Shown piece after piece: positions 1 through 30,272 of a DNA stretch of 32,398 bases. This DNA is from a virus. Below the pieces are notes generated by a model that saw only the letters and a list, made by a program, of their open reading frames with translations, was not told the origin of the DNA and made no database searches. The stretch covers positions 1 to 32,398 of IMG/VR virus record IMGVR_UViG_3300034198_014327. One strand, written 5' to 3'. Every line of letters starts with the position of its first letter. The stretch's first letter is position 1. The translations under genes and the position numbers were made by a program.

Positions 1-18
1 GCCCTCCTTTGGCTTCAT
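1..18 (-). other. Possible translation start region of the next leftward gene, cut by the window edge
   Basis: On the minus strand an AAAGGAGGGC stretch (complement of 1-10) looks like a strong ribosome binding site, so the next leftward gene probably starts just outside the window. An alternative ATG lies at 18-16 but has no Shine-Dalgarno sequence upstream. Nothing can be said about the product. Confidence 0.35.
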
Positions 19-20
19 TA

Positions 21-36
21 GATTGAATATTCAATC
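21..36. repeat. Perfect 16-bp palindrome between two early genes
   Basis: GATTGAATATTCAATC reads identically on both strands. It lies in the 60-nt gap downstream of the Gp157-family gene and just before the presumed next gene. It could be a dimer-binding operator or part of a processing or termination hairpin. It is AT-rich and has no clear U tract, so it is unlikely to be a strong terminator. Confidence 0.5.
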
Positions 37-60
37 GTATAGATTCTAAAAAAACTTAAG

Positions 61-528
61 TTATTTAATCGTTAAATTTATATTCTTTTTCAAAATAGCT
101 CCTGGTATTGTTGCCCCTGCTTTAAGATCCGCTTTTATCTCGTCTTTAGCGGGGGTTACGGTTATCTTTTCGCGTAAGTATTGCGGTGGGATAGCCGATT
201 CATCGACTATTTCGACCGCCTCTGATTTTCTGAACTGCAAGCGATAAAGCTCCGTTTCGGTGTTCTCTCCGCCCAAGCAATAAGTAAGCCAGTTTTTCAC
301 GCTGGCCGCTCTACTCTCAAGCGATTTCTTGAGCCCCTTTAAACGCTCAATTTCCTCAGTTACTAGGCTAGCTCGCTGCTCAAAAGCTTGAATCAGCTTG
401 CATGAGTTTTCGATCTTGTCATTGATGTGATCGCCGATTGCGTCTAAATTCTCCTGCCAGTTGTCGGTGACTTCTGATTCTTCATTTTCTAGCAGATAAT
501 ACTTTTTCAATAATTCGTTTAAGTTCAT
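61..528 (-). CDS. Siphovirus Gp157-family protein
   Basis: A 155-residue protein resembling the Gp157 family (first named in Streptococcus phages). It has the usual organisation: an N-terminal stretch starting MNLNELLKKYYLL, a charged coiled-coil centre (about residues 30-80, with Glu/Lys/Arg heptads), and a C-terminal half with IPPQYLREK at about 117-125 followed by a KDEIKADLKAGATIPGA-like segment. Members are typically next to recombination genes, as here: the start lies 2 nt after the stop of the annealing protein, and its AAGGAGG ribosome site is inside that gene's end. The molecular function is not established. It probably works with the single-strand annealing protein in phage recombination or replication. 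The family call is from recognised sequence pattern. Confidence 0.8.
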   Translation of the reverse strand: MNLNELLKKYYLLENEESEVTDNWQENLDAIGDHINDKIENSCKLIQAFEQRASLVTEEIERLKGLKKSLESRAASVKNWLTYCLGGENTETELYRLQFRKSEAVEIVDESAIPPQYLREKITVTPAKDEIKADLKAGATIPGAILKKNINLTIK

Positions 529-530
529 GA

Positions 531-1262
531 TTAAGCCTCCTTAACTTCATACGCTTCTAATCTCTTAAGCTGTTTAGGGCTAACCCAGCGGCTCGTTTCT
601 TCGTCAAACTGCGCGTTGTTCTCTTCTAGATAGCGCTGTGCTGCTGTTTGCTTCTTTTCATCTAGCTGCCAAATCTCATATGCATAGCTAGCTTTTTTCT
701 CGCTAACTTCAGCGACTACAATATTGCTAACAGTCCGCGCCGCTGGTGTTTCGCTAAACTCGCTTGGCATCTCTTCAGCGGTATAAAGCCCGTTTAACTG
801 CTGTGGAAATGCTTCACGCAATGCAACCGACTTCGCGCACTTAAGGATCATGATCCGCGTCATGCTTTGCCATATTGGCGTACTCTTTTTGTACTCGCCA
901 AGCATGGCAACAGCTTCTAATGGCATCTTTCGATCCTTGCGGTATACGCGAGCCCAGGCACCTATAAAATCGTTAGTTGGATAGGCTTGCGTTGCATACG
1001 AGCCATCGGGAGTGATAAGCCCTGACTCCATACCGTCATACTCTTCGTTTGCGTTAGCGATGGCTTGAAAGCCATTGATGCCAGTCATTAGCTGCAAGCG
1101 CCCTCCTGCTTTAATAGCCCAGATTTCTTTTTTAAACGGGTTTAAACCTGTGCTCTTGCAGAACTCGGTAAACAGCTTAAATTCGCTGTCATTAAGCCCC
1201 TGAGCAACCGTCGCCTTGAGCGTTTCGATTATCCCCTTGTCCTCGTATTTCACTATTTCCAT
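531..1262 (-). CDS. bet: RecT/Red-beta family single-strand annealing protein
   Basis: A 243-residue homologue of lambda Bet/RecT. These proteins coat single-stranded DNA and anneal complementary strands in phage recombination. Bet-like landmarks are FCKSTGLNPFKKEIWAI (about 31-47), INGFQAIANANEEYDGMESG (about 61-80), RVYRKDRK (about 105-112) and ALREAFPQQLNGLY (about 151-164). The reading frame is open further upstream, but the start at 1262 is chosen because AGGAAG lies 8 nt before this ATG and the conserved domain begins right after it. The last ~70 residues are charged and less conserved; in this family such tails contact partner proteins. No exonuclease or SSB partner is in the window. 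It is co-transcribed with the Gp157-family gene. Confidence 0.9.
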   Translation of the reverse strand: MEIVKYEDKGIIETLKATVAQGLNDSEFKLFTEFCKSTGLNPFKKEIWAIKAGGRLQLMTGINGFQAIANANEEYDGMESGLITPDGSYATQAYPTNDFIGAWARVYRKDRKMPLEAVAMLGEYKKSTPIWQSMTRIMILKCAKSVALREAFPQQLNGLYTAEEMPSEFSETPAARTVSNIVVAEVSEKKASYAYEIWQLDEKKQTAAQRYLEENNAQFDEETSRWVSPKQLKRLEAYEVKEA

Positions 1263-1287
1263 GTCTATTCTTCCTAGTTTGTTAAAA

Positions 1288-1590
1288 TTAATCGTTGTAT
1301 CCGCGCTCACCTGGGCGGGAACCGTAAGAATCATCATGCTCTTGAAATTCGTCTCTTTCGTCGGCTGTGCATTGGCCACAAACAGAATCCTTTCCGATAA
1401 CCCCAGAATCTTCACCGCACACGCGACAAAGGCAGTTTGAATTGAAGTCAATATCTCTAAGAATTAAATTAATAACGTCGATTGCTATCGAAGCTCTGAG
1501 CTTGTCAGAATCATCAACCCTGCTTGCGTATTTTTCTCTCTCCGCATTACTTCGATTATTCAATAACCGCTCAATTGTTTTTCTATCCAT
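1288..1590 (-). CDS. Small zinc-ribbon protein of the early operon
   Basis: A 100-residue protein not assignable to a named family. The N-terminal half is helical and charged (MDRKTIERLLNNRSNAERE). The centre has a Cys-x-x-Cys pair (CRVCG) followed about 15 residues later by CGQC, a four-cysteine zinc ribbon. The tail is acidic and polar. The start at 1590 is used because AGGAGAT precedes it at good spacing; a longer frame exists but would overlap the upstream gene. It sits between another zinc-ribbon gene and the annealing protein, which suggests a DNA- or RNA-associated early role; that is inference from position. Confidence 0.75.
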   Translation of the reverse strand: MDRKTIERLLNNRSNAEREKYASRVDDSDKLRASIAIDVINLILRDIDFNSNCLCRVCGEDSGVIGKDSVCGQCTADERDEFQEHDDSYGSRPGERGYND

Positions 1591-1612
1591 TTTTCGATCT
1601 CCTAGTTTGTTA

Positions 1613-1873
1613 TTAAAATCCCTTCGCAATCTGATACGCTCTCTCGTTGCCCGCTCTTTCATCCCTACCCTCGACACACTCAAAGCAAGCGCCGTTCACC
1701 ATGCTTGAGCCGATAGCGCCGCACTCTTTGCACTCGTCGCGGTCAAGCCCTGCAAGCTCTCGAAGCTCCATGATCGTGTTATAAATCTCTGCTTTGTTCT
1801 GGAAAGCGCTGTCTCGGTTAGCGTTGTAGCGATCCTGCATGTCGGTTATTATTTGATTGAGTATTTTTTTCAT
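1613..1873 (-). CDS. Small zinc-ribbon protein, first gene of the leftward early operon
   Basis: An 86-residue protein with a helical N-terminus (MKKILNQIITDMQDRYNANR) and a four-cysteine motif CKECG-x(9-10)-CFEC near residues 51-68. The downstream 100-residue protein has the same arrangement, so the two may be distant relatives or share a fold. GGAG lies 7 nt before the ATG at 1873; an in-frame TTG at 1891 has no such support. It is the first gene after the divergent promoter region at 1885-1960, so it should be the first product of the early transcript. Function unknown. Confidence 0.75.
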   Translation of the reverse strand: MKKILNQIITDMQDRYNANRDSAFQNKAEIYNTIMELRELAGLDRDECKECGAIGSSMVNGACFECVEGRDERAGNERAYQIAKGF

Positions 1874-1885
1874 TTTAATCTCCGT

Positions 1886-1914
1886 TTGCAATTAAGTGTT
1901 ACTTGCTCTATACT
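1886..1914 (+). promoter_or_regulatory. Sigma70-type promoter for the plus-strand cassette
   Basis: TTGCAA (1886-1891), a 17-nt spacer, then TATACT (1909-1914). Transcription would start near 1921, inside the inverted repeat at 1915-1940, about 78 nt before the first plus-strand ATG. Both hexamers match consensus well and the spacing is ideal. Confidence 0.65.
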
Positions 1915-1917
1915 GTA

Positions 1918-1946
1918 AGCATATAGACTATGATGCTTACTTGCAA
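1918..1946 (-). promoter_or_regulatory. Sigma70-type promoter for the leftward early operon
   Basis: On the minus strand TTGCAA (complement of 1941-1946), a 17-nt spacer, then TATGCT (complement of 1918-1923). The start would be near 1911, about 38 nt before the ATG at 1873. It overlaps the plus-strand promoter over most of its length, so RNA polymerase could occupy only one at a time. Confidence 0.6.
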
Positions 1947-1998
1947 GAGTTAATTGCAAATATTTCAAAGATTAATTAGTTAAGGATTTCAAATAGTT

Positions 1999-2217
1999 AT
2001 GAAGCTATTAAAAGAATTGAGGGTTAAATATAAGCTTGATAAAGAGAAGCTGATCAAGTTTTTTGGCTACGAATTACGACAGAGCTATGATGCTTTTGAA
2101 AGCCTTCACAAGCGCTATACTGTTAAGCAGTTTTTGCGCGTTTATGAGCTTTTTAATGATACTACCGGCAGCGGCGCTGCTGAGTTTATCGACAAGCTGA
2201 AGAAAGAGGTGAAATGA
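1999..2217 (+). CDS. Cro/CI-like HTH regulator candidate
   Basis: A 72-residue basic protein and the first gene of the only rightward cassette. Its pattern fits the XRE/Cro helix-turn-helix layout: helix 1 LLKELRVKYKL, helix 2 LDKEKLIKFFG, a turn and recognition-like helix YELRQSYDAFESL, then TVKQFLRVYELFN. Match to consensus is weak in the turn, so this is a structural inference. Position strengthens it: it adjoins a divergent promoter pair with operator-like repeats, the classic place for a Cro-type repressor. AAGGA lies about 12 nt before the ATG, somewhat far. Its end overlaps the next gene by ATGA. Confidence 0.65.
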   Translation: MKLLKELRVKYKLDKEKLIKFFGYELRQSYDAFESLHKRYTVKQFLRVYELFNDTTGSGAAEFIDKLKKEVK

Positions 2218-2627
2218 TAAACTTTGCGTTTTTAATATTAGGCATAGCTTCTTGTGAGATATTTCATATTGTACTTGCTCATATAAGTAAATACTACGAT
2301 GGGCAGTTTGCAAATTATGTAAAAAAAGCAGTTGATAGCGGCCTTCAATCCGAAGTTTATTATAAAGGTTTACCGCTAAATCTTCTATCTAAAAGCGATC
2401 TTTATTTAGTAGTCGGATTACTAGCGCGTGAAATGTACTATTATGAAGTGCCTCGCCCTATAGATATAATGATAAAGCCTTGTAGAAAATGGCGCGTAAG
2501 CAAAATGCTTCAAGGTAAAAAAGAAGCCAAGCATGGCACTGTTCATTTTGAGCCTATAAGTGAAGCTGAGTTTAAGGCTCTACTAGAAAAACAGTTAGCT
2601 AAATATGAAGTGTTAAATGAGCGTTAA
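2214..2627 (+). CDS. Membrane-anchored protein of unknown function
   Basis: A 137-residue protein I do not recognise. The first ~22 residues (MINFAFLILGIASCEIFHIV) form one hydrophobic segment that looks like an N-terminal membrane anchor rather than a cleavable signal, since no cleavage site is evident. The remainder is soluble: a central hydrophobic helix (LYLVVGLLAREMYYYEVP, about 83-100), a basic stretch KPCRKWRVSKMLQGKK (about 107-122) and a charged C-terminal helix. It overlaps the HTH gene by ATGA and the following gene by 11 nt, so it is translationally coupled to both. The sequence here is noticeably AT-richer than the structural genes. Confidence 0.75.
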   Translation: MINFAFLILGIASCEIFHIVLAHISKYYDGQFANYVKKAVDSGLQSEVYYKGLPLNLLSKSDLYLVVGLLAREMYYYEVPRPIDIMIKPCRKWRVSKMLQGKKEAKHGTVHFEPISEAEFKALLEKQLAKYEVLNER

Positions 2628-3069
2628 ATTCAAGTCTTTTGATTTTGCTGATAATCATCACGATCCAGAAAGTCGTGAAGGTTTTATATATTTACAGCTT
2701 AAAAAAACGCAAAAAGCATTAAAACGATACGGATTCCGCGAAGCTGTGCGATCTTTGTGCTCCGCTCATGTAGATTATGATAAACAAGAATTAAGTGACT
2801 ACTTAGTTATGATTCCCGATGCTTTTTACCTTGAAAATGAAAACACTATAGTTGCTTGTGAGATAGAAGGCTCTTATCAAGTTACTTCTGAAAAACTATT
2901 TTCCTATTCGATTTTATACGATTACCTACCTAACTACGATATCCAATTAAAGCTACTTATAGTATCTGAGCAAATGACGGTTAAGGATATTGATTTATCT
3001 TGGGTTTATTTATCCACTTTGATAGATTTGCCACATAGAACACGACTATTAACACCCGATTGGAGCTAA
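2617..3069 (+). CDS. PD-(D/E)XK-like (restriction-endonuclease fold) protein, putative
   Basis: A 150-residue protein. The centre reads IPDAF (66-70), a short loop, IVACEIEGS (78-86), then a helix SEKLFSYSILYDYL (91-104) and a strand IQLKLLIVS (109-117). This beta-PD-beta-ExX-alpha-beta order resembles the PD-(D/E)XK fold as found in the C-terminal domain of replication-relaxation proteins. The expected Lys of the ExK motif is Glu84; Lys93 in the next helix could serve as a migrated lysine, as known in other branches. It could be an active nuclease, an inactive DNA-binding relative or something else. Overlap with both neighbours implies co-expression with the membrane protein upstream. Confidence 0.5.
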   Translation: MSVKFKSFDFADNHHDPESREGFIYLQLKKTQKALKRYGFREAVRSLCSAHVDYDKQELSDYLVMIPDAFYLENENTIVACEIEGSYQVTSEKLFSYSILYDYLPNYDIQLKLLIVSEQMTVKDIDLSWVYLSTLIDLPHRTRLLTPDWS

Positions 3070-3290
3070 TGATCCTACAACTAAACCCACCAATCTGGGT
3101 ATTAACTCCAAAAGGCGAAGGCTTCGCGCTGCTAATCATCGATTATGGAATACACCTAAACTCTGTCTGGGTAGTTACCATTTTTGACACTGGCGAGGTT
3201 ACGCATATCGATTCAAACGAGGTTAAGGTTATGGGTAATTCAATGCTGAATATTCCCGATCCAAAACCATTTAAGGAAAGAAATATATGA
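3069..3290 (+). CDS. Small conserved phage protein (NPPI...TPKGEG...DYG type)
   Basis: A 73-residue beta-rich protein of a kind common in phage genomes. It starts with NPPIWVLTPKGEGFALLIIDYG (residues 5-26, pattern LxTPKGxGxAxxxIDYG), then a WVV strand, TGEVTHI, and a VxxxxN end. I know this pattern from many uncharacterised phage proteins but no function is established. The start at 3069 is chosen over an ATG 9 nt upstream because the pattern begins immediately and the ATG overlaps the preceding stop as TAATG. It is coupled to the fifth gene of the cassette by ATGA. Confidence 0.75.
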   Translation: MILQLNPPIWVLTPKGEGFALLIIDYGIHLNSVWVVTIFDTGEVTHIDSNEVKVMGNSMLNIPDPKPFKERNI

Positions 3291-3529
3291 GCAAATTGCG
3301 TGAGAGTATGACGCCGATTAAGTATGGTATTTATAGCGTTAGAATCTGGCGACAAGAGGAATTGAGCGGACCTATTGATAACCAAGATTTGATCAATGTT
3401 GCATCGCAGTATGAAATAGCAAGCTGCCAAGATTTAGCCGATCTACTGATTGATCTACCAAGAGTTAATGCTGTTGAGGTTTTAGACGTTAAAGGCTTTG
3501 GAGTGGTCTTGTATAACAATTGGCCATAA
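3287..3529 (+). CDS. Hypothetical protein, last gene of the plus-strand cassette
   Basis: An 80-residue protein without a recognised domain. Its N-terminus (MTPIKYGIYSVRIWRQEE) is beta-like and the C-terminal half (SCQDLADLLIDLPRVNAVEVLD) alternates a helix and a strand. It begins by ATGA overlap with the previous gene. Its stop TAA (3527-3529) directly abuts the stop of the convergent leftward gene at 3530, leaving no room for a terminator between the operons. Confidence 0.7.
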   Translation: MSKLRESMTPIKYGIYSVRIWRQEELSGPIDNQDLINVASQYEIASCQDLADLLIDLPRVNAVEVLDVKGFGVVLYNNWP

Positions 3530-3739
3530 CTAATCCATTATAACATCATACTCTTTCACGATAATCCAAAACTGATCTCGTATCTCTTGCCAGTCCTTAT
3601 CTTCATGCTTGATTTTGCCTCTTAGCCACTGGTCAAACTCAAAGAGAGCGCAACGACAGTTACTGCCATTGAGTAACCTCTCCGGCTCTTTGTGCATTAC
3701 CTCTTCCTCATCATAGCTTATCAGCATTTTTATTTTCAT
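3530..3739 (-). CDS. Hypothetical small protein, last gene of the leftward late train
   Basis: A 69-residue acidic protein of unknown function (MKIKMLISYDEEEVMHKEPE...), with a tryptophan-rich helix WLRGKIKHEDKDWQEIRDQF in the second half. The start at 3739 is preceded by AGGGAGGGCG, an excellent ribosome site; the frame stays open to a weaker start at 3757. It overlaps the end of the upstream gene by 29 nt. Being last in a very long operon and facing a convergent operon, it may be poorly expressed or subject to transcriptional interference. Confidence 0.7.
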   Translation of the reverse strand: MKIKMLISYDEEEVMHKEPERLLNGSNCRCALFEFDQWLRGKIKHEDKDWQEIRDQFWIIVKEYDVIMD

Positions 3740-3962
3740 CGTTCGCCCTCCCTGCATAGCCTATTATATCATCCCAATGGTCTTTAAAATTCGGATCGCC
3801 TGCTATTATTCGCGAGATTTTACCGGCAATATATTCTAGTGCCTCACGCTGTTCTGAGTTTAATTTGTTCCACCCAAAATGAGAACGCATAACAAGTTTA
3901 ATGCCCTGTGATATGAGAGCGTTGTCGTAAAATTTTCCGTGCGTTTTAGTCCTATTTATCAT
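3711..3962 (-). CDS. MazG-like / DUF6378-like small phage protein
   Basis: An 83-residue all-alpha protein. Pattern: RTKTHGKFYDNA near the N-terminus, SEQREALEYIAGKISRIIAGDP (about 36-57) and KDHWDDIIGYAGRA (about 60-73). The ExxGK helix followed by a DxxDDxxGYA helix resembles small MazG/HisE-type nucleotide pyrophosphohydrolase-like proteins often listed as DUF6378. Such proteins may trim the nucleotide pool; catalytic activity is not shown by sequence alone. It starts by ATGA overlap with the metallophosphoesterase gene upstream, so both may act on nucleotides or nucleic-acid ends. Confidence 0.6.
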   Translation of the reverse strand: MINRTKTHGKFYDNALISQGIKLVMRSHFGWNKLNSEQREALEYIAGKISRIIAGDPNFKDHWDDIIGYAGRANDENKNADKL

Positions 3963-4849
3963 TTCGCTCTGATGACTTCATAATCTACTTGATTTAATTT
4001 ATGCGAGAAAAAAAATCTTAACCAATAAGCTCCAACAGGTTTTGGAGGCTTGCCAGTTTCTACGTGCCAGCCGCCCTTGCCTGTTCCGTACTCTTCCTTG
4101 TAAGTAGGTGTTTTTATTGCTGTTTGAGACATGAGAGAAATCTTGCCGCTAGTTGATAACTTTTCCACCTGCCTATCCATAACCCACGAATCGTGGGTGT
4201 GTCCCGTAAGTATAATATCGGCATCGGGGTACATCATAGCCCTTCTTGATTGCGCGATCATGTCTTGAGTAATCGGGCCGCCACCGCCCCACCCGTGCAC
4301 GTATTTAAGATTTATTTTGTTTACCGATCTATTTCCACCGCCTCTTGATAAATCAAGTTTTCCAAAAGTAAACCAAAAAGATACATACCCGCCAAAATGT
4401 CCGTTGTATACCTTTGTTTTCTTGCCAACATTAAGCTGGGAGACTAATCTTTCGATAAGGTCCGTTTCATGGCGCGATTTGATTGAGCTTTCATGATTAC
4501 CGCCTCCTATTAGGAGCATGTTATCTCGATACGGCTTAAAAAACTCGGCTGCTGTCTCGACTAAAGAATCTAGGTAATCATCCCCTTGGTGTTCTGGTCT
4601 AACCGCTGACTTACTTGATCGTTTGTCGTACTTCCCTTGCATACAGCAAAAAAAGTCACCGGCATCTATAACAATAGCACTACGCTCTTTTGCCAGCTCT
4701 AAATGTTCTTTTTGAAGGTCCCAAAGTGATTTTGGGTTATCCCAGTGTCTATCAGCGGAAAGAAGCGCCCACGCTTCCCAATCTCTATTCTTCTTGATTT
4801 CACACGTAACTCGAAAAGCATTAACGTCAGTTTGCTCACGAATCCACAT
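3959..4849 (-). CDS. Calcineurin-like metallophosphoesterase
   Basis: A 296-residue two-metal phosphoesterase. All five blocks are present: DRH (33-35) for the first D-x-H, GD at 64-65 in IDAGDFF, GNHE (117-120), His185 in VHGWGGGG and GHTHD (216-220). Substrates in this superfamily include DNA ends, cyclic nucleotides, nucleotides and proteins; the substrate here is unknown. It lacks signal peptide or membrane segments, so it is cytoplasmic. AAGGTG precedes the ATG. It follows the holin candidate with a 52-nt gap and is coupled to the MazG-like gene. Possible roles are DNA-end processing or nucleotide-signal breakdown late in infection. Confidence 0.88.
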   Translation of the reverse strand: MWIREQTDVNAFRVTCEIKKNRDWEAWALLSADRHWDNPKSLWDLQKEHLELAKERSAIVIDAGDFFCCMQGKYDKRSSKSAVRPEHQGDDYLDSLVETAAEFFKPYRDNMLLIGGGNHESSIKSRHETDLIERLVSQLNVGKKTKVYNGHFGGYVSFWFTFGKLDLSRGGGNRSVNKINLKYVHGWGGGGPITQDMIAQSRRAMMYPDADIILTGHTHDSWVMDRQVEKLSTSGKISLMSQTAIKTPTYKEEYGTGKGGWHVETGKPPKPVGAYWLRFFFSHKLNQVDYEVIRAK

Positions 4850-4901
4850 AAAATCACCTTAATACAATAAAAAACCCTTTTTACTGCCAGAAAAGCGATA
4901 G

Positions 4902-5075
4902 TTACTTAACGATCTGTCTCGCTGTAGCTCTTACGATTCCAGTGCCGCCTAGAAAGCCTGCTATAATACTGATAGCTTCTGCGTAAGGAGCTGCTGCTGG
5001 AATAGTATATGCAATTGCTGCCACTACCGATACAAGGCTTGATAGTGTTCTGAATAATCCTTTAAACTCAAACAT
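4902..5075 (-). CDS. Small two-helix membrane protein, holin candidate
   Basis: A 57-residue protein. It starts MFEFKGLFRTL, then a hydrophobic helix LSSLVSVVAAIAYTIPAAA (about 11-29), a short PYAEA turn, a second hydrophobic glycine-rich helix ISIIAGFLGGTGIV (about 35-48) and a basic tail RATARQIVK. Size, two helices and a charged tail fit class II-like holins, which make pores in the inner membrane to start lysis. AGGAGA is 7-8 nt before the ATG. It lies downstream of the transglycosylase-type virion protein, a membrane protein and a possible glycosidase, a plausible lysis position. No function has been shown. Confidence 0.7.
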   Translation of the reverse strand: MFEFKGLFRTLSSLVSVVAAIAYTIPAAAPYAEAISIIAGFLGGTGIVRATARQIVK

Positions 5076-5090
5076 AAATATTCTCCTATA

Positions 5091-6152
5091 TTATCTAAAA
5101 GTACCTGAACGAAAAGCTAAATTACATCTACCTACTCTTTTACCTTTAACCCAAATCTCAACCACTGGATCGCCGCTGATTCGCTTTGCTTTCTCGCTTA
5201 AGATAAAGCCCCAATCCGTACAATAATAACGATGCCCAATTAACTTACCGTTTGGCTTTTCGTTTAGTGGTCCGAAGTATTTTGCAACATCTATAACTTG
5301 ACCGTTTTTAGCCTTAAAAACTATCTGATCGTACTTTTCGTTTTTTGGTGTAATTATGACGGGCTTTTGATCTTTGCCTTGTGGCGGTACACTATGCTGA
5401 TCGCCATGACTTTTTAGAGTCCAGCCAAGAGGTAAGCGAATATCGCCTCTATCGTTAATTGCAACATAAAGAAATGAATCGTACTGACTTCCAGCTGAAA
5501 CATAAAACTTTCGCTTATCTCTTGGTATCTTTACTGGCTTGCCTTGCTCGTCGCGCTCTTGGATTACCCGATTGCCATTGAATTGAGAATTCCACACAGA
5601 CATGTATTCAGCGTTTTTTAGTAGCAATTTGTCCTTGGTTACATCTGAATCAACAATATTGTCGCCGTCATAACTATGAGCAAATCTTTTGCCTCTTGGC
5701 TTAAAGTCTGTACCATGTTGCTCATTAATCAAGCTGTCGTGAATAAACCCCTCTCTTAATGGCGAATTGACTAGCTGATAGCGTAAGCCTCGAAGCTCGT
5801 TTTCTGTTACTGTGGCGAACTTATCCCACGATCTTTTATCGAGTCTATGCTCTGTAACTGGAGCTACATAAAAATCTATATGTGGATATTTCTCTAATAA
5901 AGGCCGCGATAGCTTAGCGTTATTCTGTACAAGTCTAACAAAATCATCTCCGAATCTGTGATTATCATCCCATGCAAGTTCGAGTCTGCAAAATGGTGAT
6001 CGCTTAGTCGCAAGTAGATCATCGTAAGTAGGTATAGCAATAGGCCAGCCGTCCACATGAACAAAACCGCCGCTGCCGATTCCTTCAGGGTGTTCCGCAA
6101 GTATGACATTCCCATATTTCGGTGCCGCCTTATAATCTATAAGCCACTTCAT
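5091..6152 (-). CDS. Unknown 353-residue protein, possibly TIM-barrel glycosidase-like
   Basis: I cannot name the family. The N-terminal 210 residues alternate strands and helices like a (beta/alpha) barrel: FCRLELAWDD (about 54-63), IDFYVAPVTEHR (about 92-103), GLRYQLVNSP (about 122-131), SLINEQHG (about 140-147), FAHSYDGD (157-164), EYMSVWNSQFNGN (about 182-194). An Asn-Glu pair after a strand is where clan GH-A glycosidases keep their acid/base, which is suggestive only. The C-terminal ~130 residues look beta-rich and separate. It is coupled by ATGA to the membrane protein upstream and precedes the holin candidate. It may be a lysin or surface-sugar enzyme; confidence in that is low. Confidence 0.8.
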   Translation of the reverse strand: MKWLIDYKAAPKYGNVILAEHPEGIGSGGFVHVDGWPIAIPTYDDLLATKRSPFCRLELAWDDNHRFGDDFVRLVQNNAKLSRPLLEKYPHIDFYVAPVTEHRLDKRSWDKFATVTENELRGLRYQLVNSPLREGFIHDSLINEQHGTDFKPRGKRFAHSYDGDNIVDSDVTKDKLLLKNAEYMSVWNSQFNGNRVIQERDEQGKPVKIPRDKRKFYVSAGSQYDSFLYVAINDRGDIRLPLGWTLKSHGDQHSVPPQGKDQKPVIITPKNEKYDQIVFKAKNGQVIDVAKYFGPLNEKPNGKLIGHRYYCTDWGFILSEKAKRISGDPVVEIWVKGKRVGRCNLAFRSGTFR

Positions 6153-6424: not shown

Positions 6425-8520
6425 GCTTCCACCATCCCAGATTTGTTTTTTATCTTTTGTGCGTAAATTCGTCTAAACTTAGGTAGTAACTTTTTAGTAA
6501 GGTACTCTACTTGAGCGCTTTGAGCTTGCGTCAACTCCTTTCCTGCTCTCCACCTCTTATAGGTAGGAGCGCCTAAATAGTGTACGGCGTAGAAATCCTC
6601 TGGATCACCTCCTTTCACTAATGGTTTAGCCTCTTCTTTTAACTTCAAATATCCGTTGTAGTTTTGCTCAATATCGAAAACGTCTTTTATGCCCAAGTTA
6701 GATGCTGTTTTCTTGAGCAATTGAAACGCTCCCGATGCTGTTGATTCTGGATTCTTTGCTAGCGGGTTTCTTCCTGATTCCATTTCGTATATTGTCGCGT
6801 CTATAGGATCTGAATCAATTTTCTTCTCTATCGCTTTGATTTTAGCATCTGGTTGAGGTGTTCTTTTAACCTCTACAACTTGGGGCGCTTCTAATGCTTT
6901 TTTAGTGACCACTTTTTCTGCCTCCTTAATTGCTGCTGATACTGGATCTTTAGATGATAAAGCCCCTATTAAGCTTTTGCCTGTTATCTTTGCTATACTC
7001 TTTGCTGCTTCCGCCGATTTTCCTGAAAGAGACTTATAAGCTGCCGACGTTGATATAGGTCGTGTCGCTTCCATATATTGCTTAACTGCATTTTTCAATA
7101 ACCTTGCACCGCTTATAGTGGCCGCTGGCGTGAACCCTAACGGAGCAGATAGCGCTCCTGTTAATACAGTCATAGGCAAACTGCCCCCTGTTATATAATC
7201 GCCTATCTCTGGTGTTTTTCTGGCTAATGGCTTATTTAGTGTTTTGCCAATAGATTTAGTGGCTGCTACTATTTCATTTACTTTAGCAAATTGCCCTGAT
7301 AGCTCTGGCAATGCTGTATCAAATTGTTTCTCTGATGCCTTTCTCATATCATACGAAATCATTCTTTTTAATTGCGTTATTTCTTTTGGAGTAGCTTGAT
7401 CGAAGTTGGTTTCCTTTTGTAATTGATCTACAAATTTCGTTAACTTTTTAAGCCCTCCTCCTTCCATAGTTTTGTAATCTTCTATGATAGAGTCAAACTG
7501 TTTTGCTAGATTATTTTTTGTAGAAGCTCGATAGCCCGAAAGAAACTTTTCTGTTTCTTTAAAATCTGGCATTATTTGAGTTTCTCCTAAAACTTCATCT
7601 GCTTGTTTTACTAACTGAGGAATAGTTTTGCCTAGTTTTGATCCTTCTTTTGTTACATGTAATTTTAATGATTGAACATCGTTAGGAGCATTAGTTAAAA
7701 TACCACTATCCTCTAGAGTTTTAATTTGTTGCTGTATTGGCGATTGAATTCCAACAGCATCATCTAGCTGATCAAAAGGTACGGTATTGCCTGCCTCATC
7801 TACGTATAAATTAACCTTATTTAGTCCCTTAGCTCTTTCCCCGTACTGCACCCCTAAACCTTTCTCTAGGGTTTCCTGCGAAGCATTTGCAAGCTTATTA
7901 CTATAGGAATTTGCTAAATTAGAAGCTCCTTGAGTCAATCCTGTTATTCCACCACCAAGCAAGGCGCTAATAGATCCCGATTTGATAGCGTTTTGTACTC
8001 TGTTTGAAAAGCCACCCTCTCCCTCCGAAAATCCAAAAGCTAAGCCACCCGCCGCTGCCTCTTTTGCTGCCTGCGCTACTTTTGGAAGGTATCCGGCAGT
8101 TTGACCAACCTTAGATGCCATTAATAACGGGTTTTTTAACGATGATGCTATTTCTAATGCTGTAGATGCTACTGGATCCGCCTCTTTAAATGACGATTGT
8201 ATAGCTCTAGTTTGATTTAAGTTATCGCTATAAGACGACTTTTTACCAGTTAAATAATCTAATACAGAACTTCCAGCGGATACGATCTCATCTCCTTGAC
8301 CATACGTCATCATATCTAAGGAGCTTAATAAAGGGCCTGCAACAGCTTGTCCTGCGGAGATTTTTTCTCCTGACGGCCTTGTTGTCCACCAATCCTTAGA
8401 AGTTAATGCATCTATAGGGTTTTTCAACAAAGATGGTAATATCTCTTCTTCCGAAATAGGAGTAAAACCAGCACTCGAAGGGCTAGCTATTTCGCTATTA
8501 TCAATCGGAGTAAAACCCAT
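6421..8520 (-). CDS. Internal virion/ejection protein with C-terminal lytic transglycosylase-like domain
   Basis: A 699-residue protein. The N-terminus carries a tandem GFTPI motif (residues 2-6 and 18-22), each followed by an acidic EI segment. The middle (about 100-560) is helical, with glycine/alanine-rich hydrophobic stretches (about 155-215 and 440-480) that could insert into membranes. Residues about 570-685 resemble a soluble lytic transglycosylase fold: catalytic Glu581 in EMESGRNP, SGAFQLLKKTA, and YAVHYLG where the family has its AYNAG-type block. Such proteins are carried in the capsid and open peptidoglycan for DNA entry. It begins as TAATG on the previous ejection gene. Confidence 0.8.
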   Translation of the reverse strand: MGFTPIDNSEIASPSSAGFTPISEEEILPSLLKNPIDALTSKDWWTTRPSGEKISAGQAVAGPLLSSLDMMTYGQGDEIVSAGSSVLDYLTGKKSSYSDNLNQTRAIQSSFKEADPVASTALEIASSLKNPLLMASKVGQTAGYLPKVAQAAKEAAAGGLAFGFSEGEGGFSNRVQNAIKSGSISALLGGGITGLTQGASNLANSYSNKLANASQETLEKGLGVQYGERAKGLNKVNLYVDEAGNTVPFDQLDDAVGIQSPIQQQIKTLEDSGILTNAPNDVQSLKLHVTKEGSKLGKTIPQLVKQADEVLGETQIMPDFKETEKFLSGYRASTKNNLAKQFDSIIEDYKTMEGGGLKKLTKFVDQLQKETNFDQATPKEITQLKRMISYDMRKASEKQFDTALPELSGQFAKVNEIVAATKSIGKTLNKPLARKTPEIGDYITGGSLPMTVLTGALSAPLGFTPAATISGARLLKNAVKQYMEATRPISTSAAYKSLSGKSAEAAKSIAKITGKSLIGALSSKDPVSAAIKEAEKVVTKKALEAPQVVEVKRTPQPDAKIKAIEKKIDSDPIDATIYEMESGRNPLAKNPESTASGAFQLLKKTASNLGIKDVFDIEQNYNGYLKLKEEAKPLVKGGDPEDFYAVHYLGAPTYKRWRAGKELTQAQSAQVEYLTKKLLPKFRRIYAQKIKNKSGMVEA

Positions 8521-9467
8521 TAATCTATAGTGCCCTTAACACCATTAACAATATAAACTTTCTTTCCTGATTTAGTTATTTCTCCAGTCTCAACTGGAGC
8601 AGATTCTATAGATTTACCAGCCGTGGGAGAAGTACTATTTATAGGCGTAGATTTTGCTAAACTACTCAAATATTCTTTAAATGCTGCTCCTTTGCGCTCC
8701 ATATCTGCATCGCTATCGTACCATTTAGGGCCAAATTGATTTATTAATCGCGTTCTGGCATCGCTGTTTGTTTCGCGACCTTGTATTTTATCTACTTGTC
8801 CGATCATTGCTTCGCCTACTGCATCGATAGTGGATTTCGCGCTATTAGGTGCGCCAATAAAAGGTATACTTTGCGTCAAACCACCGATTATCGCTTTGCC
8901 GTTATTATTTTGAGCTTTTGCTGATTCTATAGCCTTATCTACAAATTGCAATGATTGACTTAGGTCTGATGTTGTCTGTAATTCACTTGGCAATGCTTTT
9001 GCCGCTATTATTCTAGGATCTCTTAGCTTATTTAGCTCAAGTTCTAAAGCTGCTTGCTGATCTGCTTTTTTCGCCTGCTGATCCTGCATATTCTGCTGAG
9101 TCAATAGTGCTGAAAGCATGTCGGTTTTAGCTTGTCTTGGTGACCATGATTCAGGCGCTGATTCTGAGAGATAGGCTTTTAATGATGGATTAACCTCTAA
9201 TGCCGCTGGATCTTTTAATTGGGATGCTATGAACGGACTAGCTTTAGTGTCTTGAAACTGAGAATCCCTAGCCTGGCGCTGCCCAAAGCCGCCAAGACCG
9301 CCAGCTAATAGACCTTGTAGCAGAGGCTGCCATATTGCTTCTGAGTTTGTTGTCGGTTGTAGTTGGATTTGAGAAATTCCGCGCCCTGCGGAAAATAACG
9401 GATTACTTGCAAGATAATCCTCTTGACTTGGAGCTGCTTGAGCTAAGTAATCTAGAACTGAAGCCAT
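8520..9467 (-). CDS. Probable internal virion/ejection protein
   Basis: A 315-residue protein without a named family. It begins MASVLDYLAQAAPSQEDYL, has a glycine-rich segment GLLAGGLGGFGQRQARDSQ (about 49-67), a Gln/Ala-rich helix (about 110-145) and a helix-turn region around residues 165-240. The C-terminus ends in a short beta-like GKKVYIVNGVKG. It sits between a Q-rich protein and the transglycosylase-type protein, in the block where short-tailed phages encode ejected proteins. GGATAGGT lies before the ATG; the upstream gap is 6 nt. Its role is inferred from context. Confidence 0.7.
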   Translation of the reverse strand: MASVLDYLAQAAPSQEDYLASNPLFSAGRGISQIQLQPTTNSEAIWQPLLQGLLAGGLGGFGQRQARDSQFQDTKASPFIASQLKDPAALEVNPSLKAYLSESAPESWSPRQAKTDMLSALLTQQNMQDQQAKKADQQAALELELNKLRDPRIIAAKALPSELQTTSDLSQSLQFVDKAIESAKAQNNNGKAIIGGLTQSIPFIGAPNSAKSTIDAVGEAMIGQVDKIQGRETNSDARTRLINQFGPKWYDSDADMERKGAAFKEYLSSLAKSTPINSTSPTAGKSIESAPVETGEITKSGKKVYIVNGVKGTID

Positions 9468-9473
9468 ATTTAC

Positions 9474-10376
9474 CTATCCAAACTTAAATCCATTTTGAGC
9501 AAATCCACCTAATACTGCGCCGCCTAATTGCCCTAGTAGCGTAGATCCTGAACTTGGAGCCTTTGGTCTATACTTTTGCTGCAACTGCAAATCGTACTCA
9601 GCATTTGCCCTGCTTCTAGCATCTTGAGCATCCCAGTAAGCTTGTTGTGATCCGAAGCCACCGTAATCGCTACCGCCGCCACCGCCGCCGCCCTTGCCAT
9701 GATATTCATGCGCTTGTAAGTATCTCTGATTTGCTTCTCCCTGAGTTTGCAGGTCTTTTTGCTGAGAGTAACCCAAGTTTTGATTTGCCATTCCTGACTG
9801 TGCGCCCATAAGCTGGGTGTAATCGCTTAGGCCGCCATAGCGCTGATTTTGGTCCATTGTAAAGTTGTTTTGATTTGCTTGTGAACCAATATTAAAAAAG
9901 CTGTTAGCTGCTTGTGATGCTTGGCCTTGATTCTCTGCATAAGCTTGCTGACGTTGATCTGCTTGGCTTTGCTCAATTCTTGATTTTTCGCGGTTATATA
10001 ACTCCGATCCCATTGGAATTCCGCGATTAGCCATCGTTTGCTCAAAGTCGCCTATCTGTTGTTGAAATATGGGGTTATTCCGCGCATCGTAAGCTTGGTT
10101 ATAATTCCCCATCTGCTGAGTTATAAAGCCCTTGTAATCATCGGCTCCTGGTCCTTTGTATTGACTAAAATCAAACGGCTGCGCTAGCGAATCATTGATT
10201 CCTGGTAATAGTTGATTTGCTGACTTGCCAAGAGATAGATCGCCCTTTTGAGTTTGATTAATAACCCTATTCTGCTGCTTAGTTAAGCCTTGTAGCTGCT
10301 GTCCTTTCTCCTTACCCTTACCCCTAGACTTGTCTTTTTTAGGGGCGGGCGGCTTTGATGTAATTCCCTGTGCCAT
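9474..10376 (-). CDS. Gln/Asn/Gly-rich virion-associated protein
   Basis: A 300-residue protein. It begins with a very basic segment (APKKDKSRGKGKEKGQQLQG, about 11-30), followed by a long Gln/Asn-rich stretch (about 75-215) with many Tyr and Met, a glycine run (about 227-233) and a short hydrophobic, Gly-rich C-terminus (LLGQLGGAVLGGFAQ). This is the composition of an intrinsically disordered, prion-like chain. The basic start could bind DNA. It begins as TAATG on the previous Q-rich gene, preceded by a GGGGGG ribosome-site-like run. An ejection or packaging role is inferred from its place among internal virion genes. Confidence 0.7.
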   Translation of the reverse strand: MAQGITSKPPAPKKDKSRGKGKEKGQQLQGLTKQQNRVINQTQKGDLSLGKSANQLLPGINDSLAQPFDFSQYKGPGADDYKGFITQQMGNYNQAYDARNNPIFQQQIGDFEQTMANRGIPMGSELYNREKSRIEQSQADQRQQAYAENQGQASQAANSFFNIGSQANQNNFTMDQNQRYGGLSDYTQLMGAQSGMANQNLGYSQQKDLQTQGEANQRYLQAHEYHGKGGGGGGGSDYGGFGSQQAYWDAQDARSRANAEYDLQLQQKYRPKAPSSGSTLLGQLGGAVLGGFAQNGFKFG

Positions 10377-21309: not shown

Positions 21310-22494
21310 CTACCCTCTGGTAAGTTCATATCTATCTGTTAATAGATCGATATTAAGGTTTCTTGATGTAGTTCCTAGAGTTTTGTTGATCCCCACACTT
21401 ATATTCACTAGCTGAGTAGCTGTCGGCATATTTGTGCTTCGCGTACCACCGTAAACCCATGTAACAGAATCAGTAGATGAGAAAAAATCTGCGCGTGTCC
21501 AACCAGGATTAATAAAGATGCCTAGCCAGATATAGGTTAAATCTACAGTAAGAGACGGAGAGGCATCGGCTATACTGGCTGTGCTTGCTGCGGAAGATGC
21601 GATCCTCCAGTTTGCGGAGGCGGCCTCATCATAGAGCCAATAAACCCCGTCAACTACGTTTGTACTAGCTGGTGCGTCATGGTACCCTGCAAAAATTTGG
21701 TATCGCTCTGCTAGTACAGAAAGTGTATCTACTGCAATTCTGGTGAGAAATAGCGCGTAGCCCTGAGCTGGCACAATTGAGTTATTATTCGGTGAGCCTA
21801 TATAAGCTTTGCCTGTTGTTGTAGTTCCAGTAGAATTCCTTAAAACTCCGTAAGGTTTTTCTGTTGCATCGGATAGGTAGACTGCGGGTGCTATATTCGA
21901 TCCTGTGCCGCTTGTGATTTGTTCGTAGTCACCACGGGAGTTATTGAAATCTGTAAAATTTGTGAATTGTCCAAAACCATCGGCTTTAGATGTAGCAATA
22001 AGTACCCATCTTGAGGCGGTGCTATCATAAATAAATTGCGCAGTATCGCCAGGGGTTAAAAATAAAGGTATCCGAGATCCCCACGTCATTCGATTAGCTG
22101 CCGTACTTGATGCTGAGTCACGCTCTAAGATTAATAGGTAATCTGTTGATACATTTTGAACTATCACAACTCTATCGGTGTTCGTTGGTACCATGCCTGT
22201 AATTTTAATTGAGGCTGATTGGTTTACTCGAAGAAACGTGCAAGAGGAGAAATTGGTGGGGTTATAATCATTTTGATCTGTTGCTGGCGTTACAGTCAGT
22301 ATCCCGTTTGTTCCGTTAATCCTAAGCGATTGAAGCGCTACGTTAAGTGTATAAGTGCTATTTGCTCCTGCATCGGTTGCGGAAAGATTGGTGCCAGGAG
22401 TAAGAACGCGCTCCGCTGATAGCGTGCTGTCGTTGGCTAAGGCTAAATATTGAGCTGTTGTCGGTGCTGCGCTTGGCGGATTGTTGACTGGCAT
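21310..22494 (-). CDS. Fibre-like virion protein
   Basis: A 394-residue protein. The N-terminal part (PTTAQYLALANDSTLSAERVLTPG, about 9-32) is the ANDSTLSxERxLTPG... attachment motif common at the start of phage fibre and virion-surface proteins. It is followed by beta repeats (TYTLNVALQSLR, NRVVIVQN-like stretches, GDTAQFIYDSTASRWVLI) and a C-terminal domain with YQIFAGYHDAP and DGVYWLYDE, resembling lectin-like fibre domains. It probably sits on the virion surface and may contact the host. The start is set at 22494 (TAATG on the upstream stop) since the motif begins immediately; a longer frame would overlap heavily. Confidence 0.78.
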   Translation of the reverse strand: MPVNNPPSAAPTTAQYLALANDSTLSAERVLTPGTNLSATDAGANSTYTLNVALQSLRINGTNGILTVTPATDQNDYNPTNFSSCTFLRVNQSASIKITGMVPTNTDRVVIVQNVSTDYLLILERDSASSTAANRMTWGSRIPLFLTPGDTAQFIYDSTASRWVLIATSKADGFGQFTNFTDFNNSRGDYEQITSGTGSNIAPAVYLSDATEKPYGVLRNSTGTTTTGKAYIGSPNNNSIVPAQGYALFLTRIAVDTLSVLAERYQIFAGYHDAPASTNVVDGVYWLYDEAASANWRIASSAASTASIADASPSLTVDLTYIWLGIFINPGWTRADFFSSTDSVTWVYGGTRSTNMPTATQLVNISVGINKTLGTTSRNLNIDLLTDRYELTRG

Positions 22495-23150
22495 TACGCA
22501 AACTCTTGGATTGCTAAGGTTGATGATGCGCCGCCCGCGATCGCAAAAATCTGGGACGTGCAAAACGTGTACTCGTCCATAACCCAAGTGCCGTTAGGTG
22601 TTAGAGTAATACCTGAGTTTAAAACCGCTGTTGTGCCAAGGCCGAAAGATATATTATTAACTGAAAGATTCGTAAGAACTAAACCTTTCCTACTTGCGTT
22701 AGCTGCTAAAGCTGATGCGCTCGCGACTCCTACTGATGCGCTTGTAGGGCTTGATGGAGTAAGTGCCGTTTTATTTACTGCCACGTTCCCGATTGTGTTA
22801 CTACCCACTGGTAGAGCTGCCGATATTGTGACTGCTCCAGTGTTACATGCTGTAACCTTGCCGTTTAGCGTCGAGAGCGTGCTTTCTGTCGCGGCTCCTG
22901 TAGGTAACGCTGAAGATGATATGACCACCGCGCCCGTATTCACCGCAGTTACCTTGCCATTTAATGCCGAAAGGGTTGTTTGGGTTGCAAAGTCTGGAAC
23001 TGATAGGCTTTCTGCGCCTGCGCCGCCATAATCTACAATAACAACCTGTGTTTGTTTGCTACTCTTATCAACGGAGCGCGTAACTATATCTGCGTTAGTA
23101 TTAGCATCAAAACTAGTCTTTTTGTTAGTTACTGTTACATTGTCGGCCAT
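22494..23150 (-). CDS. Repeat-containing virion protein
   Basis: A 218-residue protein with two copies of a ~32-residue unit: TLSALNGKVTAVNTGAVVIS (about 59-78) and TLSTLNGKVTACNTGAVTIS (about 91-110), linked by LPTGAATES. The PTGAATE/TLxxLNxK pattern recurs in phage structural proteins. The C-terminal domain (RKGLVLTNLSVNNISFGLG and following, about 146-218) resembles small beta-barrel phage decoration domains. It starts as TAATG on the portal stop and ends as TAATG into the fibre-like gene. A virion surface role is likely. Confidence 0.75.
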   Translation of the reverse strand: MADNVTVTNKKTSFDANTNADIVTRSVDKSSKQTQVVIVDYGGAGAESLSVPDFATQTTLSALNGKVTAVNTGAVVISSSALPTGAATESTLSTLNGKVTACNTGAVTISAALPVGSNTIGNVAVNKTALTPSSPTSASVGVASASALAANASRKGLVLTNLSVNNISFGLGTTAVLNSGITLTPNGTWVMDEYTFCTSQIFAIAGGASSTLAIQEFA

Positions 23151-28227: not shown

Positions 28228-28878
28228 TTATAAACTGAATTTCTTAATCTTTGATGCACATATCGGCCCAAGCGGTAGCAAATTACCCGTCCCTTCGATT
28301 AGGCTCTGCTCAACATAAGCGTTAGCGTTCATTAGGTTAGACCCCGCTTCATGGTCGCACCCGAAAATGCTGTGCCCCAACTCATGGGCTATACCCACTA
28401 CGGTATGCCGGAACCTATAATCTCCCGCTGTGTTATATTCCTGGGCTGTGGAGTAACTAAAGAACTGACCGAGAAAAGCGAAACCGGCCATATATCGAAT
28501 CCCGTCAATCGCAAACGGTGGCGCTAGAACGTGGATTGCTAATCCTGAGGTAAGTTTCCCCTCACCCCATAGAGTTTTGTACCAGCTATAGAACTCTTCA
28601 TTAAACGAGAAGAAGGTCGCTCCGCGCTCTCTGAGGTCGTAAAACGGGTCTGGCCTACGTTCCCCCTGCCGTCTCGATATCCTCACGCCATAGCCTTTAT
28701 AGTATTCTATAGCCCTCCTGACTGCCCTATCTCTAACTATTGGCCTGGCATATGCGTTATCGACTGAGACGACATAGAGAGGCACTGATGGTAGTCTAGG
28801 GGCGCTGAACGCCTGAGCGACTCCGAGTATCAAGGCCCACAGCAACATGCTGATTATAATCGCTAGTCCGTATCTCAT
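28228..28878 (-). CDS. Exported zinc metallopeptidase (metzincin-like)
   Basis: A 216-residue protein. A signal peptide (about 1-23, ending GVAQA) directs export. A catalytic zinc site is clear: AHELGHSIFGCDHE (164-177) with His165, Glu166, His169 and His176, and a Met in SNLMNAN (180-186) in the position of the Met-turn. The third His is one residue further away than in the classical HExxHxxGxxH consensus (H-x6-H rather than H-x5-H); from memory some bacterial metallopeptidase families use this longer spacing. Around it are LAIHVLAPPF (about 113-122) and YMAGFAFLGQFF. It probably cuts periplasmic or extracellular proteins. It is coupled by ATGA to the upstream gene. Confidence 0.82.
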   Translation of the reverse strand: MRYGLAIIISMLLWALILGVAQAFSAPRLPSVPLYVVSVDNAYARPIVRDRAVRRAIEYYKGYGVRISRRQGERRPDPFYDLRERGATFFSFNEEFYSWYKTLWGEGKLTSGLAIHVLAPPFAIDGIRYMAGFAFLGQFFSYSTAQEYNTAGDYRFRHTVVGIAHELGHSIFGCDHEAGSNLMNANAYVEQSLIEGTGNLLPLGPICASKIKKFSL

Positions 28879-29171
28879 TTTCTGTACTCGCTCATCCTAA
28901 CCACGTTTATTTGATTTTTTTCTATCATCCTTCTGACCCACCCAGGTTCAAGCCCTAGCAAATCGCACACGCTAACAAAACAGAAAATCCCATCTCTGGT
29001 GTCATCGTTTACCCACTTTACAGCGCTATCTTTTATTTCATTTTCCGGTGAGTCCAAATCATTCATTGCTAGGCTAAAAATGGCGTTAGCGATCATCCTA
29101 ATACTCTCATCTGGAACAAACCTTTCCTTAAAAGCCGCCAGCGTTAAACTTGATAGCCTATCAGTGCTCAT
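28875..29171 (-). CDS. GLEP-motif small phage protein, copy 1
   Basis: A 98-residue protein with KDSAVKWVNDDTRDGIFCFVS (about 47-67) and VCDLLGLEPGWVRRMIEKN (about 68-86). It shares KWV...F..VC...GLEP..(V/I)R with the 114-residue product at 27869-28213, which indicates distant paralogues. The remainder is helical. The type is common among uncharacterised phage proteins. Its ATG overlaps the previous stop as ATGA, and its own stop overlaps the start of the metallopeptidase gene, so the protease is translated with it. Function unknown. Confidence 0.72.
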   Translation of the reverse strand: MSTDRLSSLTLAAFKERFVPDESIRMIANAIFSLAMNDLDSPENEIKDSAVKWVNDDTRDGIFCFVSVCDLLGLEPGWVRRMIEKNQINVVRMSEYRK

Positions 29172-29407
29172 TTTGTAGGTGGCCTTGATTTCCTGGCCAA
29201 CTCACATTCAACTACTATCGCGATCTGTTCATTTTCTTCATGCGTTAGCCCCGCCCATTTTTGATAAGTTAAAAACTCTTGAATAATTTGGAGCCCCTCC
29301 ACCGTAGTTGGCAGAAAGTAGTAAACATCTTGTTTTCTAATATGAGTCGTATTAAACGCTTCGTTCACAAATAAATGCTGTGGGGGATTTCGGTCATTTT
29401 CGAGCAT
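29168..29407 (-). CDS. Hypothetical small protein
   Basis: A 79-residue protein (MLENDRNPPQHLFVNEAFN...) with a charged helical C-terminus (EENEQIAIVVECELARKSR). No known motif. GGTGGAG lies 8 nt before the ATG at 29407, which is why this start is preferred to an in-frame start 36 nt upstream. It then overlaps the end of the upstream membrane-protein gene by 14 nt. Its stop overlaps the next start as ATGA. Confidence 0.65.
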   Translation of the reverse strand: MLENDRNPPQHLFVNEAFNTTHIRKQDVYYFLPTTVEGLQIIQEFLTYQKWAGLTHEENEQIAIVVECELARKSRPPTK

Positions 29408-29549
29408 TGCGATTACTCCACCAATATAAAATTTCGTAAGCATTGATAAGCATCGTCGCGAAAGCGAAGACAGATAGCATTATCGCGCCGAGCAAAAATA
29501 CTAACGCCAAGTCCGGCCCTAACAACCACACGAAAAATGATTGGATCAT
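29394..29549 (-). CDS. Small membrane protein (51 residues)
   Basis: A short gene found between called genes. It starts MIQSFFVWLLGPDL and has a hydrophobic helix ALVFLLGAIMLSVFAFATMLIN (about 15-36), then an aromatic stretch (YEILYWW) and a basic tail SNRNARK. It probably spans the inner membrane once. Its ATG overlaps the previous stop as ATGA and its end overlaps the next gene by 14 nt, which together with the hydrophobic composition supports it being real. Function unknown; in this position small membrane proteins can be inhibitors of host processes or holin-like. Confidence 0.68.
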   Translation of the reverse strand: MIQSFFVWLLGPDLALVFLLGAIMLSVFAFATMLINAYEILYWWSNRNARK

Positions 29550-29731
29550 AACCCATTCACCTCAGCTAATATCATTTTAATAATGTGCTGAATCATGCCC
29601 AACCCTGTCGTGTCCTTGCGAGCTTCTGTGATGCTGTCTAGATGGCGCTGGATGATTGCCGCTACTTGCTGCTTCATGTCGTATGCTGTTAGCTCTTTAA
29701 CGTATTCTGCGTAGCTGTCATGTTCAGTCAT
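29546..29731 (-). CDS. Hypothetical small helical protein
   Basis: A 61-residue protein beginning MTEHDSYAEYVKELTAYDMKQQ, helical throughout and ending IIKMILAEVNGL. No family recognised. The start at 29731 overlaps the previous stop by ATGA and follows a GGAGG-like purine run; a longer frame would start inside the upstream gene. It lies in the block of small coupled genes upstream of the terminase. Confidence 0.68.
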   Translation of the reverse strand: MTEHDSYAEYVKELTAYDMKQQVAAIIQRHLDSITEARKDTTGLGMIQHIIKMILAEVNGL

Positions 29732-30174
29732 TTCGCCTCCTTCCTCACAAAATGCTTTTCGATGAAACAAATCAATGCCGTTCTTTCGTCCTCTACTGTT
29801 GGATAAAGACGCGACTCAACTACTTTGCATCTATCTTGTCCGTATTCATCAACCTCTGGCTTCGAGGGATCGGGGACTATTGAGTAGGGGCCTTTGCTAA
29901 TAGTGGTCGTCGTACGCCAATGCCCAGAATCCCAATATTGCAGGGTGTTACTTTCGATCTTCTGGACAAAGTCACCTGCCTTCACACACTCCCCATTAGC
30001 CATAGCAATCCAAGCGTCTTTGGCGGTCATCTCTTTTTTTGGTTCCATTGGTTTTTGTTCCTCTAAGATAAATGCTCTCTGAAAATCTTCGTATGATGGT
30101 AGAAAACCATTTCCAATATAAACAATCCTTTCGCCTGGCTTACCTTCAATTAATCGCTTTAATGGTTTATTCAT
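29728..30174 (-). CDS. Hypothetical phage protein (148 residues)
   Basis: A soluble protein. The central part (EMTAKDAWIAMANGECVKAGDFVQKIESNTLQYWDSGHWRT, about 48-88) resembles a kind of small domain common in uncharacterised phage proteins (AW.AM..G..V......Y...D..W). The C-terminus is charged, with EDERTALICFIEKHF (about 127-141). No catalytic motif. Starts by ATGA overlap with the 33-residue zinc-finger-like gene and stops by ATGA into the next. Confidence 0.7.
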   Translation of the reverse strand: MNKPLKRLIEGKPGERIVYIGNGFLPSYEDFQRAFILEEQKPMEPKKEMTAKDAWIAMANGECVKAGDFVQKIESNTLQYWDSGHWRTTTTISKGPYSIVPDPSKPEVDEYGQDRCKVVESRLYPTVEDERTALICFIEKHFVRKEAK

Positions 30175-30272
30175 TTGACACGCTTCCTCGGCCTATACAA
30201 ACAAATCATGCACTCATAGCGACTGCGGCAGATGTTACAGCCTCGGTTTCTTTTCTTACTTCGTTTTTGCAT
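30171..30272 (-). CDS. Micro zinc-finger-like basic protein (33 residues)
   Basis: A very short gene missed by length-based calling: MQKRSKKRNRG, then CNIC, five residues, ECMIC and a basic end LYRPRKRVK. Two CxxC pairs eight residues apart plus about 13 Lys/Arg give a compact zinc-binding, nucleic-acid-binding-like peptide. AAGGAAG is 6 nt before the ATG, it overlaps the upstream gene by 17 nt and its stop overlaps the next start as ATGA, which makes chance unlikely. Confidence 0.62.
   Translation of the reverse strand: MQKRSKKRNRGCNICRSRYECMICLYRPRKRVK

Follow-up and report, generated by a model that had tools for sequence, protein, structure and literature searches.

The window, that is, the whole stretch of DNA analysed here, is the whole virus record IMGVR_UViG_3300034198_014327 (32,398 bases), in which end repeats were not detected. 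Judged by its matches to portal, terminase, and major head and tail families, the record is a tailed phage, and its nearest annotated portal matches are in Bradyrhizobium, Myxococcus and Stenotrophomonas phages, at 29–34% identity. The minus strand carries nearly all genes. When the contig ends were joined, a 40-aa ORF ran in frame across the junction, which suggests that the genome is complete or circular. Incompleteness of the record is nevertheless possible, a point that bears on the absences counted within the contig. A 16-bp perfect palindrome (GATTGAATATTCAATC) lies at 21–36, directly upstream of the junction ORF; together they may represent a second control site and a sign of a circular genome.

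The locus of interest is a divergent gap between a minus-strand early operon and a plus-strand cassette of five genes (Table 1). By a codon table derived from 12 of the window's long genes, both flanking gene sets look coding in the annotated frame, which is also the best-scoring frame for 5/5 cassette ORFs. G+C skew becomes positive in 2001–3000, as it also is in 22001–23000. Coding scores and ORF layout thus describe two divergent, tightly packed gene sets with one common control region. Because coding gene sets flank the gap on both sides, a promoter is probably required there in each direction, and since the cassette ORFs overlap, a single upstream promoter would serve all of them; the gap very likely drives transcription both ways.

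The cassette genes at 2214–3529 gave no significant match in PHROGs, Pfam, NCBIfam or sequence searches. Within the 2617–3069 product, the stretch PDAFY...ACEIEGSY resembles, by eye and without database support, a PD-(D/E)XK nuclease core; the model of this protein had a pLDDT of 33, a confidence too low to be usable. RNA folding of the two leaders was no better than that of shuffled sequences, of which 157/200 and 69/200 folded equally well or better, and Rfam and tRNA scans found nothing. A small hairpin is predicted at 1992–2009, with the start codon of 1999–2217 within its loop.

Table 1. Features of the divergent locus. Promoter-like sites are sequence matches; operators are proposed binding sites.
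Feature	Position	Strand	Details
Divergent control region	1874–1998		125 bp, between start codons at 1873 (minus early operon) and 1999 (plus cassette)
Minus early operon	61–1873	-	1613–1873 and 1288–1590 without assigned function; RecT-like 531–1262; Gp157/Gam-like 61–528
Plus cassette, first gene	1999–2217	+	72 aa; candidate regulator
Plus cassette, four more genes	2214–2627, 2617–3069, 3069–3290, 3287–3529	+	Mutually overlapping ORF calls
Plus promoter-like site	1886–1914	+	TTGCAA-17-TATACT; 9/12; -35 1886–1891, -10 1909–1914; predicted start ~1921
Minus promoter-like site	1918–1946	-	TTGCAA-17-TATGCT; 8/12; -35 1946–1941, -10 1923–1918; predicted start ~1911
Alternative minus promoter-like site	1930–1959	-	TTGCAA-18-CATCAT; 8/12; -35 inside outer repeat arm
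Inner inverted repeat	1915–1922/1933–1940		Perfect, 8 bp, GTAAGCAT/ATGCTTAC; over both -10 regions
Outer inverted repeat	1885–1895 and 1950–1960		Perfect 11-bp arms, TTTGCAATTAA and TTAATTGCAAA; 11/11; 3/1000 shuffles
Proposed left operator	1886–1908		Copies 1886–1895 (-, TTAATTGCAA) and 1899–1908 (+, TTACTTGCTC), inverted order; plus -35 and spacer
Proposed right operator	1937–1959		Copies 1937–1946 (+, TTACTTGCAA) and 1950–1959 (+, TTAATTGCAA), 13 bp apart; minus -35 and upstream flank
Second candidate regulator	32034–32255	-	73-aa HTH protein; phrog_6831 transcriptional regulator, E 1.3e-4

A sequence-only reading of this DNA had placed one promoter on each strand of the gap, and both sites, TTGCAA/17 nt/TATACT on the plus strand and TTGCAA/17 nt/TATGCT on the minus strand, are present. 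It had described them as facing away from each other; divergent transcription and an almost complete overlap of the polymerase sites stand, and the wording is amended to place the -10 boxes inside and the -35 boxes outside. The predicted plus and minus transcripts do not overlap.

Ranking of all candidates was less decisive for the minus strand than for the plus strand. The plus site is the top plus candidate within 1850–2020. The minus site is tied at 8/12 with 1959–1930, 1953–1927 and others, and a minus-strand match at 1902–1872 scores above it at 9/12, although its spacer is 19 nt long and the end of its -10 overlies the start codon. A 9-of-12 promoter scan over 1–6000 returned 11 sites against a shuffle mean of 14.3, fewer than expected by chance, and an overlapping pair (plus at least 9, minus at least 8, -10s overlapping) arose in 103/1000 shuffles of 1874–1998. 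By itself, the overlapping promoter pair is ordinary, and the promoters appear credible by position, not by score. Both counts agree with an explanation in which the promoter-like sites and the repeats arose by chance in an AT-rich gap, the real promoters being unrecognised and no shared operator existing; the repeats, described below, bear on it from the other side.

The perfect 8-bp inverted repeat at 1915–1940 is likewise present, and it had been proposed as the site of a single dimeric repressor. On this explanation, one dimer bound to the inner dyad would block both -10 regions and select the operon. The dyad is perfect and spans both -10 regions, and just six such dyads, two of them overlapping, were listed for the whole contig. 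However, a dyad as good (8 bp, loop 3–20) was found in 73/1000 gap shuffles. The inner dyad is weak, near chance for such a gap, and control by one dimer there is unlikely; TTAMTTGCA half-sites over the -35 boxes make a better operator candidate. The 11-bp outer arms reported in the same reading proved exact, and a longer form of the outer repeat matches at 14/16 positions (1885–1900/1945–1960; 4/1000 shuffles).

Two features of the gap had been missed earlier. The hexamer TTGCAA occurs three times in its 125 bp (0/1000 shuffles), and a motif of 9–10 bp, TTAMTTGCA(A), is present in four copies, at 1886 (minus strand), 1899, 1937 and 1950. Clustering was assessed with an all-k-mer test that used no preset motif and was run at six settings, the shuffle counts applying per setting. 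With 9-mers and one mismatch, it recovered a family of four (1887, 1899, 1937 and 1950; 2/500 shuffles); 10-mers gave three copies with one mismatch (8/500) and, with two mismatches, five copies of a slightly different family (0/500). The remaining settings were not unusual: 8-mers with one mismatch (55/500), exact 8-mers (178/500) and 10-mers with three mismatches (227/500). Exact TTAMTTGCAA, a motif picked out of the gap sequence itself, occurs five times in the window, three of them in the gap and the other two (5455 and 9403) within ORFs. With two mismatches, the whole window holds 95 matches against 100.9 expected, that is, no enrichment. The gap was also compared with the stretch formed by 32256–32398 and 1–60, and their similarity was matched by 91/100 shuffles.

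Motif clustering in the gap is, with the gene layout and the coding nature of both gene sets, directly supported. The rarity in shuffles of this clustering (2/500) and of the outer arms (3/1000) argues against chance as the source of these features, an explanation that we consider quite unlikely. The outer repeat appears to be better explained by paired half-sites than by a single dyad.

Such repeats might also be replication-origin iterons or sites for a host protein such as LexA, instead of phage repressor sites. The AT-rich segment 1947–1998 adjoins the repeated short motifs, and the LexA consensus is matched at 15/20 positions from 1911 by the script's count, a level reached in 3/1000 shuffles. 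Against this, no replication initiator was recognised among the ORFs scanned, and the LexA-like site is missing its second core half, besides having been chosen after the fact. The LexA box was rejected on these two grounds, and we find iterons or host-protein sites distinctly improbable.

Two small proteins are candidate regulators. For the 72-aa product of 1999–2217, residues 4–57 gave a marginal phmmer alignment to 9iaq_A (HTH cro/C1, E 1.2), and there was no match in Pfam (up to E 10), PHROG or NCBIfam. Its model is all-helical with modest confidence (mean pLDDT 69.7); Foldseek returned three weak matches, none at E 0.001, and the best match in a second structural look was a spectrin repeat (Z 3.0), uninformative as to fold. 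That this product is an HTH protein or DNA binder is weakly supported, by the one marginal match. The HTH signal is clearer in the 73-aa protein (E 1.3e-4); in a circular contig, its gene would belong to the downstream part of the early operon. An imperfect palindrome (GTTCTCGTTGCAAGAAC, 32278–32294) that includes TTGCAA lies immediately upstream of the 73-aa gene. A repressor of the region would probably be the 72-aa product.

An opposite-strand cassette adjoining early recombination genes, together with two small candidate regulators (72 aa and 73 aa), would also suit the lysogeny switch of a temperate phage, with the cassette as a CI-like immunity module. However, neither the tyrosine integrase profile PF00589 nor the serine recombinase profile PF00239 matched in the contig, which may be incomplete; as controls, these profiles matched 14/14 and 10/14 genomes, respectively. 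No CI-type repressor was found among the five cassette proteins with PHROGs, Pfam or NCBIfam, the proteins being divergent. A lysogeny switch is, on this evidence, very unlikely.

Relatives were sought from both sides of the genome. In viral_contigs, the 72-aa protein gave 28 pattern stretches and the 1613–1873 protein three, with none confirmed in either case; none of 41 stretches was confirmed for 2617–3069, and a scan of the same type with RecT found no relative. The 72-aa protein had no relative in genome_contigs (246 stretches) or in plasmids, and in phages only a match at E 0.5; 2617–3069, 2214–2627 and 32034–32255 had none in phages. The portal query was also empty in viral_contigs although relatives are present there, which indicates that single-sequence scans miss things. 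Used as an operator pattern across all viral contigs, the outer repeat hit two stretches, one on each of two contigs and both within the same type of 479-aa ORF, and these were taken as chance.

The terminase query returned 235 relatives, of which 80 were kept; eight of these (L033–L040) are 67–70% identical. A comparison of 54 window proteins with nine loci from terminase-related records matched the virion and packaging genes plus two small proteins from 28228–31543, and the ORFs at 61–3962 had 0 matches in these loci. A related MAG contig was represented by loci L120, L123 and L124. Locus L120 gave 12 match rows at E <= 1e-3 covering 11 window proteins, all of the virion, packaging and lysis side. 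A second locus (L123), taken at E up to 1, added two further proteins of that side, including 28875–29171 (E 8.9e-7), plus weak rows; the best match of the gap-neighbour proteins to the MAG contig had an E of 0.037. The terminase is interrupted in two loci: locus L117 has an 811-aa terminase ORF (7524–9959) with an intein-like insert between the terminase halves, and locus L120 shows a similar interruption, with pieces at 2255–3607 and 4577–4693.

The relatives share the virion side and not 61–3962, which indicates that the early region is mosaic and offers no comparison for the gap. No search turned up a relative of the gap or of its neighbouring genes above chance level, so conservation of the gap was not seen. 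Among 31 loci related through the metallophosphoesterase, eight have a Gp157 match, and eight have an opposite-strand gene followed by a divergent gene. This layout was dropped as support for the present operator, because it is similar in arrangement and the DNA is unrelated. In a second phage group (L003, L019–L022, L024–L026), the metallophosphoesterase and Gp157 genes are separated by an opposite-strand cassette, and the divergent gap there is unrelated in sequence.

We propose that the gap is the divergent control region of an uncultured tailed phage, whose two operators, each a pair of half-sites, are bound by a phage regulator that damps both promoters, and we put the chances of this reading at about even. 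Transcription of both the five-gene plus cassette and the minus early operon (with its small genes, RecT and Gp157) would begin in the gap. The paired TTAMTTGCA half-sites would be bound by a regulator for which the first cassette product, of 72 aa, is the most likely candidate, one pair (1886–1908) sitting on the plus -35 and the other (1937–1959) on the presumed minus -35. Each pair would also follow closely after the start site of the opposing promoter, and a bound regulator would therefore damp the two of them. The cassette would then limit its own expression, and expression of the early genes would stop or come later. Overlap of the polymerase sites would also bring the two promoters into competition. 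In this proposal, we infer promoter use, the identity of the binding protein and the direction of regulation. A choice between the recombination operon and the plus cassette is possible. We strongly doubt the further idea that a phage lacking a recognisable integrase carries a self-contained two-operator toggle of overlapping promoters, which at infection would select either the recombination operon or an accessory cassette of five uncharacterised genes and so make a decision that does not concern lysogeny.

Divergent switches of this kind are already known in the literature. In Tn10 tetR/tetA, the divergent promoters overlap and two operators repress both, under a TetR family regulator with an inducer; by description, its overlapping promoters and two operators resemble those proposed for the gap. 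By layout, the closest described case appears to be Pc/Pr–RcoLS20 of the Bacillus subtilis plasmid pLS20. The account of pLS20 describes overlapping divergent Pc and Pr promoters with the HTH regulator gene rcoLS20 on one arm, and many 8-bp sites that recur on both strands as direct and inverted repeats, one set lying over the promoters; binding and autoregulation were demonstrated there, as was looping between two operators separated by 75 bp (PMC4207663). Overlapping divergent promoter candidates, an adjacent candidate regulator gene and short repeats on both strands are shared, whereas the present case is one of sequence only, with proposed operators ~51 bp apart centre to centre and an uncertain regulator fold.

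Temperate phages offer partial parallels. In the CI switch of staphylococcal phage 13, divergently transcribed operons flank a gap that holds several operators (PMC8516035); divergent gene sets are alike in such temperate CI switches and here, as are the several operators, candidate ones in our case, but no CI-like protein and no integrase were found in the contig. In mycobacteriophage BPs, the full gp33 operator combines two half-sites that vary in sequence, one of them being a short palindrome, and the phage is temperate with an integration-dependent repressor (PMC4557955). The two-half-site make-up is, by description, like that of our proposed operators, the temperate, integration-dependent setting being what sets BPs apart. 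A literature search on lytic phages found no paper.

This kind of control region is common, and its parts here have no close known relatives. Even if the proposal is true, the understanding of such switches would stay unchanged. A very compact control region would then join the divergent phage and plasmid switches, with a regulator and a cassette that lack known relatives, and it would provide a defined 75-bp fragment for measuring promoter competition and repression.
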